DNA from: Bradyrhizobium sp. WBAH42
GTDB lineage: Bacteria; Pseudomonadota; Alphaproteobacteria; Rhizobiales; Xanthobacteraceae
DNA length: 64,000 nucleotides
Direction of reading: 5' to 3'
Assembly (NCBI RefSeq): GCF_024585265.1
Contig: NZ_CP036533.1
Coordinates: 7,263,001 to 7,327,000, forward strand
In this document: piece after piece, positions 7,284 to 45,287 of the stretch
Layout: the number at the start of each line of letters is the position of its first letter
Numbering within the stretch: position 1 is the stretch's first letter
Translations under genes and position numbers: made by a program
Notes under the pieces: model-generated
The model's input: only the letters and a program-made list of their open reading frames with translations
Database searches by the model: none
What the model was told of the DNA's origin: nothing

Positions 7284-7334
7284 ATTCTGCAGACGATGAT
7301 CGCTCATCCGGCTAGCGGATGATATCCGCCAAGC

Positions 7335-7414
7335 CGTCATTGCGAGCGAAGCGAAGCAATCCAGACTGGTTCTGCGGCGGGATTCTGGATTGCTTCGCTT
7401 CGCTCGCAATGACG
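7335..7414. repeat. Palindromic repeat, family B, copy 1
   Basis: The arms CGTCATTGCGAGCGAAGCG and CGCTTCGCTCGCAATGACG are exact complements and extend inward through GAAGCAATCCAGA. The centre is about 20 nt. A second, partly rearranged copy is at 36328-36442. It lies between the convergent ackA and RMD1-family genes. Confidence 0.85.
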
Positions 7415-7479
7415 AAGAATGCGGCGGCCGCGCAGATCAATCGTACTGTCCTGTCATGCCTGCAATAGGATTCCCGCTC

Positions 7480-10238: not shown

Positions 10239-10268
10239 TCTCGGTGCGGGCGCGATGCGCATTGCTGC

Positions 10269-10415
10269 GCCCTCTCCCCTTGGGGGAGAGGGCATCTCCG
10301 GTGGCGGACACACACTCGCTTGGGTGAGGGGTATGTCTCCGCGAGCATCAGTGCAAGCGGATAGATACCCCTCATCCGGCGCTTCGCGCCACCTTCTCCC
10401 GCAAGGGGAGAAGGG
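10269..10415. repeat. Composite palindromic repeat, family C, copy 1
   Basis: The element opens with GCCCTCTCCCC and its complement GGGGAGAGGGC, and closes with CCTTCTCCCGCAAGGGGAGA, with ACCCCTCATCCGGCGCTTCG in between. A close copy is at 21151-21305. It fills the gap between the MarR-GNAT gene and moaB. Confidence 0.85.
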
Positions 10416-10437
10416 AAGAAAGCATCATCGTCCGCAA

Positions 10438-11154: not shown

Positions 11155-12126
11155 CTACAACCCTCCGGCGCCGAACGTGTTGCAGGCCTGGACCGTGCCC
11201 TGCTGGTAGCCGGTCATGAACCATTGCTTGCGTTGCGCCGCCGAGCCGTGGGTGAAGGAGTCGGGCACGACGCGGCCGGTGGCCTGGCGCTGCAGCGTGT
11301 CGTCGCCGATCGCGCTCGCCGTGCTCAGCGCGGCCTCGATGTCGCCGGGCTCGAGGAAGTTCGGACGCTTCTTCGCCTCGCGGTTGACCCAGACGCCGGA
11401 CAGGCAGTCGGCCTGCAGCTCGACCTTCACCTGGAGCGCATTGGCCTCGGCCTTCGAGCCGACCTGCTGCTGCAGCCGCGTCACGCGTGGAATGATGCCG
11501 AGCAGGTTCTGGATGTGATGGCCGGCTTCATGCGCGATGATGTAGGCCGTGGTGAAATTGCACGCCGACTTGCCGGAGCAGCCGCGGAAGCGCGTCTCGA
11601 CCTCGCGGAAAAAGCCGGTGTCGAGGAAGATGGTCCGGTCCGGCGGACAATAGAACGGCCCCATCGCCGACTGCGCCATGCCGCAGCGCCCGCCGTTGGT
11701 GGCGTTGCGGAACAGCACGATCTTCGGACCGGTATAGGTCTGGCCGCTGGCCTGGAAGATCTCGGTCCAGCGATCGTCGATCTCGCCGAGGATGCCGGAG
11801 ATCATGCTGCCCATCTCGTCGGTCGGCGCGCCGCGCTTGCCGGAGGAGGCCTGGCGATCGGTCTGGTAGCTCGGCGCATGGCCGCCGCCGGTGAGGATCT
11901 CGGCGCCGCCGATCAGGATGCGGGGATCGATGCCGAAGGCGTAGCCGACCAGGCCGAGGATGATGATGGTGCCGCCGGCGCGGTGCACGTCCTCGACATG
12001 CACGTCGGCGACCGACGGGGCGACCTTGCAGAGCACGGGCACGCGGCGCGACAGCCGGTCGATGTCGCGCATGGTGAACTCGACCTGCCCTTCATGCCTC
12101 GATGTCGTCGCTGCGGCGGAAGTCAT
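11155..12126 (-). CDS. YpfJ-type neutral zinc metallopeptidase with an IlvD-derived N-terminal segment
   Basis: The 323-aa frame contains the zinc-peptidase family core: a membrane helix [16 protein letters not shown], the catalytic HEAGHH at about residues 199-204, and C-terminal [15 protein letters not shown]. Its first ~52 residues are abnormal. Family members start with [13 protein letters not shown]; here that sequence is encoded from 12136 in another frame and stops after 14 codons. The frame joined to the peptidase instead reads [27 protein letters not shown] and [11 protein letters not shown], which is dihydroxy-acid dehydratase sequence. The start at 12126 is the first ATG in this frame and lacks a well-spaced ribosome site. 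The gene may be a chimera or a decaying gene. Confidence 0.75.
11971..12096 (-). other. Segment resembling an internal fragment of ilvD inside the ypfJ-like gene
   Basis: These ~42 codons read [27 protein letters not shown] and [11 protein letters not shown], a well-known conserved stretch of IlvD/Edd dehydratases that precedes GIMGILGEL in that family. Here it is followed directly by TIIILGL, the membrane helix of the peptidase. YpfJ proteins normally have a Gly-rich linker at this place. Confidence 0.75.
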
Positions 12127-12136
12127 CGTAGCGCAT
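12127..12136 (-). other. Original ypfJ start codon and its short frame
   Basis: The ATG at 12136 follows AGAGGAAAGG and encodes [14 protein letters not shown] before a TGA. This matches the usual N-terminus of alphaproteobacterial YpfJ proteins, so it is probably the ancestral start, now out of frame with the enzyme. Confidence 0.65.
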
Positions 12137-18060: not shown

Positions 18061-18984
18061 ATGAATTTGCATTCGCTCGACCTCAACCTGTTGACCGCGC
18101 TCGACGCATTGCTGCGCGAGGCCAATGTCAGCCGCGCGGCCATGAGGATCGGCCTGTCCCAGCCGGCGACGAGCCACGCGTTGCAGCGCCTGCGCGACAT
18201 CTTCGGTGATCCGCTGCTGGTGCGCACGGGCGCACGAATGGAGCTGACGCTCCGGGCCCAGGCCCTGCGCGCACCGCTGGCGCAGGCGCTCGACCAGGTG
18301 CGCGGGCTGTTCGTGCCTGACGACTTCGATGCCGCGCGCAGCGAGCGGCAATTCCGTCTGATGATGCCGGATCTCGCGGTCGAGCTGTTGATGCCGAAGT
18401 TGATGGCGAAAGTCACGCGCCTTGCCCCCAACGTCCGCATCGACGTGGTGCCGTGGCGGGGACCGGCGATCTTCCACGCCGAGTTCGCCCGCACCATCGA
18501 CCTCGTGATCTCGATCGGCAATGCCTTCAAGGGCTTTCACCGGCAATTGCTCTATACCGACAGCGATGCGCTTGCGGTCCGGCGCGGCCACCCCCTGGCC
18601 GCGAAGCTGAAGCGGCGCGAGACCTTCCTCGCCGCGCGCCATGTCGGAGTCATCATCCGCGGCCAGCAGGAGGACCTGATCGACACTTGGCTGCGAGCCA
18701 AGGGCATCGAGCGGCACGTTTCGCTGGTGGTGTCAGGGTATCTCGAAGCGCTGCACGTCGCCGCGCGCACCGATCTCGTCGCCTTCGTGCCGCGCCGGCT
18801 GATCGCCGCGCTGTCGCAGCAGCTCGGCGTCGTCGCGGTGACGCCGCCGCTCGATCCTGGGATCGACGAGCAGTTCATGTTCCATCCGACGCGCGCGCAG
18901 ATGGATCCCGGCTCGATCTGGCTGCGGCGGCTGATGCTGGAGACCGGGCGGGAGCTGGAGCAAGCCAGGCGGAAGCTCCCGTAG
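18061..18984 (+). CDS. LysR-family transcriptional regulator
   Basis: The 307-aa protein has the LysR winged helix at residues 1-60 (LNLLTALDALLREANVSRAA, then LSQPATSHALQRLRDIFGDPLLVR) and a periplasmic-binding-type effector domain from about 90 to 300. It resembles the NodD/NahR-like subgroup in the DPLLVRTGARMELT segment. I chose MNLHSLDLNLL as the start; an ATG six codons upstream is in frame. The stop codon TAG is supplied by the left arm of a palindromic repeat that begins at 18981. Confidence 0.9.
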   Translation: MNLHSLDLNLLTALDALLREANVSRAAMRIGLSQPATSHALQRLRDIFGDPLLVRTGARMELTLRAQALRAPLAQALDQVRGLFVPDDFDAARSERQFRLMMPDLAVELLMPKLMAKVTRLAPNVRIDVVPWRGPAIFHAEFARTIDLVISIGNAFKGFHRQLLYTDSDALAVRRGHPLAAKLKRRETFLAARHVGVIIRGQQEDLIDTWLRAKGIERHVSLVVSGYLEALHVAARTDLVAFVPRRLIAALSQQLGVVAVTPPLDPGIDEQFMFHPTRAQMDPGSIWLRRLMLETGRELEQARRKLP

Positions 18985-19071
18985 GGTGGGCAAAGCGGAG
19001 CGTGCCCACCACTTCTATTGCAATCTTGGAAAGATGGTGGGCACGGCGCTCTGCGCCTTTGCCCACCCTAC
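18981..19071. repeat. Palindromic repeat, family A, copy 2
   Basis: The arms GTAGGGTGGGCAAAG and CTTTGCCCACCCTAC are complementary, with inner GTGCCCACCA and TGGTGGGCAC. The first bases provide the stop codon of the LysR gene. Confidence 0.85.
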
Positions 19072-19095
19072 AAGAGCTACGACAGCCGCGCGGCC

Positions 19096-21120: not shown

Positions 21121-21150
21121 TACTCCAAAGAGCGAGATGCACGTTGATGC

Positions 21151-21305
21151 GCCCTCTCCCCTTGCAGGAGAGGGCCGCGGCGCTGGTCAACGCAGACTCA
21201 CTCGGGTGAGGGGTTGTTTCCGCGAGTCCAACTCGCATTTGAATTCGCTGAGAGATACCCCTCATCCGGCGCTTCGCGCCACCTTCTCCCGCAAGGGGAG
21301 AAGGG
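21151..21305. repeat. Composite palindromic repeat, family C, copy 2
   Basis: This has the same architecture as 10269-10415, including GCCCTCTCCCC, TCGGGTGAGGGGT, ACCCCTCATCCGGCGCTTCG and TTCTCCCGCAAGGGGAGAAG. It lies between the convergent monooxygenase and thioesterase genes. Confidence 0.85.
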
Positions 21306-21325
21306 AAGAGGCTCCCGCGGAGAAT

Positions 21326-36302: not shown

Positions 36303-36327
36303 GGTTATCTCACTCTGGCTTTTCCAC

Positions 36328-36442
36328 CGTCATTGCGAGCGAAGCGAAGCAATCCAGATCTTCTCCGCGGCAAGAGCCTGGATTGCTTCGTCGCCAGCGC
36401 AAAATTGCTTCGCAATTTTGTCGCGGGCTCCTCGCAATGACG
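36328..36442. repeat. Palindromic repeat, family B, copy 2 (interrupted)
   Basis: The left arm CGTCATTGCGAGCGAAGCG is identical to that at 7335. The right side is interrupted by AAAATTGC-TTC-GCAATTTT, a smaller perfect hairpin, before the terminal CTCGCAATGACG. It separates trpE(G) from apt. Confidence 0.8.
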
Positions 36443-36449
36443 GTCATAC

Positions 36450-45159: not shown

Positions 45160-45170
45160 GAAATGATTTT

Positions 45171-45258
45171 GTAGGGTGGGCAAAGCGGAGCGTGCCCACG
45201 ATTCAAGATGACGGTAAGAGACGTGGGCACGGCGCAAGGGCGCCTTTGCCCACCCTAC
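45171..45258. repeat. Palindromic repeat, family A, copy 3
   Basis: GTAGGGTGGGCAAAG and CTTTGCCCACCCTAC flank inner arms GCGTGCCCACG and CGTGGGCACGGC. It lies between queE and hemF and ends 29 nt before the hemF ATG. Confidence 0.85.
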
Positions 45259-45287
45259 GGCACACTCCACGTGGTAAGCGACCGGGA

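Follow-up and report, generated by a model that had tools for sequence, protein, structure and literature searches.

The start region of a Bradyrhizobium ypfJ gene is overwritten by a short copy of ilvD from the same chromosome

The ypfJ locus

The window analysed here is a 64,000-nt stretch of the Bradyrhizobium sp. WBAH42 chromosome (contig NZ_CP036533.1, positions 7,263,001 to 7,327,000); coordinates are window positions unless a contig is named. On its reverse strand lies a ypfJ gene, for a zinc metallopeptidase, whose start region has been overwritten with 127 bases copied from ilvD, a gene for an unrelated enzyme elsewhere on the same chromosome. The features of the locus are as follows.

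12092 to 12136, reverse strand: native ypfJ start and first 14 codons, closed by TGA at 12094-12092 (reading of the frame; the start is also used in relatives)
11970 to 12096, reverse strand: ilvD copy of 127 nt in place of the Gly-rich linker (identity to the genome's own ilvD; PF00920 match)
11970 to 11974, reverse strand: right joint, CGGCA, 5 nt common to donor and recipient
12089 to 12097, reverse strand: left joint, last recipient base 12097 and first donor base 12096 (comparison with donor and relatives)
12070 to 12072, reverse strand: ATG within the ilvD copy, in the peptidase frame, candidate new start for 305 aa (reading of the open frame)
12081 to 12091, reverse strand: Shine-Dalgarno-like stretch, -19 to -9 from the 12072 ATG, -8.7 kcal/mol (duplex energy with the presumed anti-Shine-Dalgarno sequence)
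12124 to 12126, reverse strand: second candidate ATG for the peptidase frame, 10 nt downstream of the native one, for 323 aa, with a weak Shine-Dalgarno pairing (-3.2; open frame and duplex energy)
11155 to 11969, reverse strand: YpfJ-type zinc metallopeptidase body including the membrane helix, open to the stop at 11155-11157 (PF04228, NF050010)

The peptidase frame reads HEGQVEF...VHRAGG and continues without a gap into TIIILGL. An earlier note, made from the DNA letters, had proposed that the native start at 12136 stops after 14 codons, that the frame changes at the left joint, and that conserved IlvD sequence stands in the peptidase frame directly before TIIILGL. The TGA was found, the frame change is present, and the profile searches identify the IlvD residues. 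In Pfam, PF00920 (ILVD_EDD_N) matches the patch stretch (E 2.3e-9, 37.3 bits against a cut-off of 27) beside PF04228, which matches the peptidase body from profile position 36 on (E 3e-92). Among the NCBIfam models, the 323-aa reading passes NF050010 (YpfJ; E 1.2e-93, 313.9 bits against a cut-off of 250) and gives a partial match to NF009103 (dihydroxy-acid dehydratase; E 4.2e-17, 61.6 bits against a cut-off of 710). A search for PDB relatives returned none at E 0.1.

The chimera scores over both cut-offs (PF04228, NF050010) of the YpfJ / KPN_02809 neutral zinc metallopeptidases and keeps their whole peptidase body, with the HEAGHH motif, in an open frame. What precedes the membrane helix in this family, the conserved N-terminal motif MRxxxxRxSDN/D-I/V-EDRR and the Gly-rich linker, is replaced. 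Because the chimeric frame has lost the N-terminal motif, peptidase function is likely to be impaired, and the locus holds the only PF04228 match in the genome. The IlvD part (PF00920, NF009103) is a fragment of about 42-49 residues of the N-terminal domain, identical to the genome's own IlvD; it lacks the active-site context of the dehydratase and makes no enzyme.

Origin of the patch

The patch is identical at 127 of 127 positions to the genome's own ilvD (G000:C1 5223788-5223914), which lies about 2.05 Mb away on the same strand. The blastn match between the two extends over 144 bases with an E value of 4e-65, so chance resemblance is out of the question. The earlier note had called for this nucleotide alignment and had put the ilvD-like DNA at about 126 bp (11971-12096); its ilvD origin stands, and the extent is corrected to the 127 bases given above. 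It had also described the piece as transplanted, which does not hold: the donor ilvD is an open frame, read through with the piece still in place, so the piece is a copy. The genome has seven PF00920 matches, namely six full dehydratases and the patch.

The corresponding 127 bases of ilvD in four relatives show 3, 3, 4 and 5 differences, so the source was this genome or a near-identical strain. That ilvD DNA released by a sibling cell, or by one of a nearly identical strain, was taken in by the same short-patch route is very unlikely in our estimation. The full identity cannot separate own from sibling DNA, but nothing points to an outside source, the closest other species already show 3-5 differences, and the genome's own gene suffices.

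Distribution among relatives

Loci from relatives were compared in two sets (80 + 4, 84 in all, with some strains common to both). An ordinary linker is present at 81 of the 84, including the four close relatives, and the other three (L046, L070 and L107) are sequences that start inside the linker at a contig end. The N-terminal DNA motif followed by an ordinary in-frame linker was found at 78 loci; L074, L092 and L111 have the ordinary linker with what by eye are silent changes in the motif. The proposal that ilvD DNA replaces the Gly-rich linker is sustained by this comparison, and two outcomes named as refuting the earlier reading did not occur: the relatives lack this N-terminus, and the IlvD match of its residues is significant. 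Sustained, too, is the view of a recent event in a single genome, given the full identity to the donor and the relatives without the patch. An old family feature is rejected, the patch being absent from all readable relatives. L046, L070 and L107 are the same sequences as L157, L158 and L160, from genomes G040, G179 and G118.

Across the genus, 193 of 195 genomes have a PF04228 match, spanning profile positions 1-290 in all matches listed. Twelve genomes, picked for a low PF04228 score or for closeness, were followed up: in seven the match spans 1-290, and in four (G040, G179, G118 and G159) it starts at a contig end. G144 (L159), a genus genome in two contigs, has a ypfJ whose Gly-rich linker is frameshifted and free of ilvD DNA; this stretch may change easily or attract sequencing errors.

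A 205-base query across the joints was matched in 263 of 265 genus genomes. Besides the window itself, the matches listed cover only query positions 49-193 or less, which is the ilvD part, and lie in relatives and in the genome's own donor gene; no other match listed from the 265 genomes spans a joint. The patch therefore looks private to this genome, as far as the genus sequences go. Among about 5.8 billion proteins, the best 120 of 1407 matches all carry PF00920 and none carries PF04228, so no chimera of the two occurs among them. This supports rarity, with the reservation that the window's own product is absent there too. A domain fusion kept in other genomes is rejected, none being found among the joint matches listed or these 120 proteins. 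One of the proteins, P0016 (470 residues, from a metagenome), has precomputed PF00491 and PF00920 matches and may be another mosaic or a gene-calling fault on a short contig.

Outside the genus, a draw of 80 genomes from the phylum contained the family in 22. A regular expression for the N-terminal motif fits 16 of 19 loci from this draw (own, same-genus and split G337 matches left out); L253, L259 and L261 fail it and look by eye like weaker versions of the motif. In G337 the PF04228 match falls into two parts (L263 and L264) within one open frame.

The joints

By local DNA identity the nearest relatives are L151 (94.1%) and L042 (94.0%). In these, GACATCGAGG is followed by a linker of 83 nt, after which comes ACCATC or ACGATC. 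The chimera keeps recipient sequence up to the end of GACATCGAGG, where the donor takes over with CATGAAGG. At the right joint, the CGGCA of the donor coincides with CGGCA of the recipient; sharing of these 5 nt has a chance of about 0.004. Guidance by similar GG-x3-ILG codons in both genes, as had been suggested, can at most have helped: such codons exist, just downstream of the right joint, and the joint itself is the 5-base CGGCA.

The left joint is blunt, with no base common at the break. One base inside it stands ATGAAGG (12095-12089), the base before it being the donor's C, and the lost recipient stretch has these 7 nt too, displaced inward by 9 nt with the codon phase kept (a coincidence with a chance of about 0.005, assessed post hoc). 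An exchange at ATGAAGG would have given 8 more nt and an in-frame fusion. With its blunt left joint and the loss of 8 recipient nt, the locus is not fully explained by a simple event with microhomology at both ends.

Ordinary homologous recombination or gene conversion of the RecA type between ilvD and ypfJ is, on these joints, extremely improbable. The two genes do resemble each other just right of the joint, where the final 22 columns of the 144-base alignment contain 17 matches, but the ends offer no homology besides the 5 and 7 nt, a 501-base blastn query found nothing above noise on the donor beyond the 144 bases, and the relatives' linkers show no longer homology.

Proposed mechanism

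The evidence is best accounted for, we believe with good probability, by a one-off, microhomology-aided short-patch copy of genomic DNA, of the template-switch type or by short-patch double illegitimate recombination (SPDIR), which has left a chimera that is silent or poorly expressed. On this view a short single-stranded piece, or a nascent-strand copy, of chromosomal ilvD would have been written into ypfJ by illegitimate recombination helped by very short homologies, either as in SPDIR or by a double template switch at a stalled fork. In this step 79-83 nt of G-rich linker would have been exchanged for 122-127 nt of ilvD, leaving the donor unchanged. At the left end, the 8 nt lost beyond what the 7-nt homology predicts may have gone together with the exchange or in a small deletion afterwards; this extra loss puts the native start out of frame.

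The linker itself may have favoured stalling. Its sense strand has 16 GG runs, and quadruplex-like stacks are predicted with RNA energies as a proxy. It is hard to copy at least in vitro, since draft contigs of three genomes end inside it. RecJ is a suppressor of SPDIR-type events, and the presence here of a recJ that is intact in sequence speaks against the proposed route; that the strain might lack RecJ is accordingly rejected.

Patches of this kind did not prove common in the part of the genome sampled; the whole is a single contig of 8.29 Mb, 99.98% complete. In a sample of 1.6 of the 8.29 Mb, 3 of 728 repeat pairs passed a filter of 40-600 nt, at least 96% identity and no more than one partner per side, which discarded pairs with further partners, and a genome full of such patches is rejected. 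The three are the ilvD patch pair, one of 110 nt separated by 1.4 kb and one of 50 nt separated by 27 kb; in this sample only the patch pair is both longer than 100 nt and more than 30 kb apart. The 110-nt pair (G000:C1 6258108-6258216 and 6259476-6259585) is 98% identical.

These figures bear on a fault of assembly or library preparation, in which a poorly covered G-rich linker let chimeric reads become the consensus. The contig ends inside the linker in G040, G179 and G118 fit such a fault, as does the lack of a like chimera among the 120 best protein matches, and PCR chimeras also arise at short homologies. We nevertheless consider it unlikely: the genome assembles into one contig, the 1.6-Mb sample was not rich in similar patches, and two joints with at most 5 common bases, on one molecule with correct flanks, are hard to obtain through k-mer overlaps or single PCR switches.

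Age

In the peptidase part, this genome and L151 differ at 12 of 144 fourfold sites. Were the patch neutral and as old as the L151 split, about 7 differences from the donor would be expected; none is seen, so by this rough arithmetic its age is below roughly 0.4 of that split. The species is known here from one strain, so the patch may have arisen after isolation or through faulty assembly.

Reading frame and possible product

The net length change is +43 nt, so the native start is out of frame and its reading stops after 14 codons. Upstream, no stop interrupts the peptidase frame as far as 12444, and GTG 12420 is the first of its possible starts. As the patch brings an in-frame ATG and a Shine-Dalgarno-like stretch, a 305-residue chimera could still be made. 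The duplex at the 12072 ATG (-8.7 kcal/mol, against -6.8 at the native start) is equalled by 2.8% of the 1788 ATGs in the window, and its pairing at -19 to -9 is somewhat distant from the start. Mean unpaired probability is 0.47 at the 12072 ATG versus 0.42 at the native start, but the flanking sequence is predicted to fold more stably (-35.8 versus -25.1).

On these figures re-initiation at the 12072 ATG is plausible. This ATG lies 19 nt downstream of the stop that closes the residual 14-codon frame. In our reading the gene is probably silenced or expressed weakly; any product would presumably arise mainly by re-initiation at 12072 and would lack the conserved N-terminal motif. A bolder reading, which we put forward tentatively and rather doubt, is that one short-patch event both broke the old start and supplied a new one, and that the peptidase is now produced with a cytoplasmic tail derived from IlvD. 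If true, the locus would record, in nature, the origin of a chimeric protein through one copying accident.

Relation to known systems

Short-patch replacement of gene DNA by that of another gene is known from selection experiments, and the ypfJ/ilvD patch is a new example of this known kind of event. SPDIR is RecA-independent, proceeds through a single-strand intermediate, is raised on loss of RecJ or similar functions, and is recognised by short shared bases at both ends. The ypfJ case has 5 nt at the right end and, at the left, none at the break and 7 nt one base inside. As SPDIR is generally understood, it differs in its setting in a natural Bradyrhizobium genome, in its 127-nt length and in having one joint without a common base. 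It is alike in that the patch matches DNA elsewhere in the genome, with the donor unchanged. SPDIR is reported to substitute into a gene a short heterologous segment from inside or outside the genome (Harms et al. 2016, PNAS 113:15066, as listed in PMC6321871), with relaxed identity requirements (PMC7192050); at ypfJ, too, a short patch was swapped for unrelated DNA. Microhomology-mediated template switching (MMBIR/FoSTeS type) likewise copies a distant segment into a deletion with few-base joints, but most descriptions of such templated insertions concern eukaryotes, whereas this case is bacterial.

Natural cases in which donor, recipient ancestor and both joints can be read are useful. Here all can be made out, since the patch carries no substitutions and the ancestral linker persists in close relatives, and this makes the locus a clean example of how a chimeric or broken gene forms by accident in bacteria. 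One copy event can alter a protein end, shift the frame and add a start codon together, and for annotators a profile match to two unrelated families can mean a true mosaic.

Other matches between the window and its own genome, from 60 of the 64 kb (40 first-look candidates scored per search), are paralogues or dispersed repeats. Dispersed many-copy families lie at window positions 7334-7415, 10246-10423, 18977-19078, 21132-21318, 36323-36445 and 45164-45280; the first of these matches both strands and is hence palindromic.
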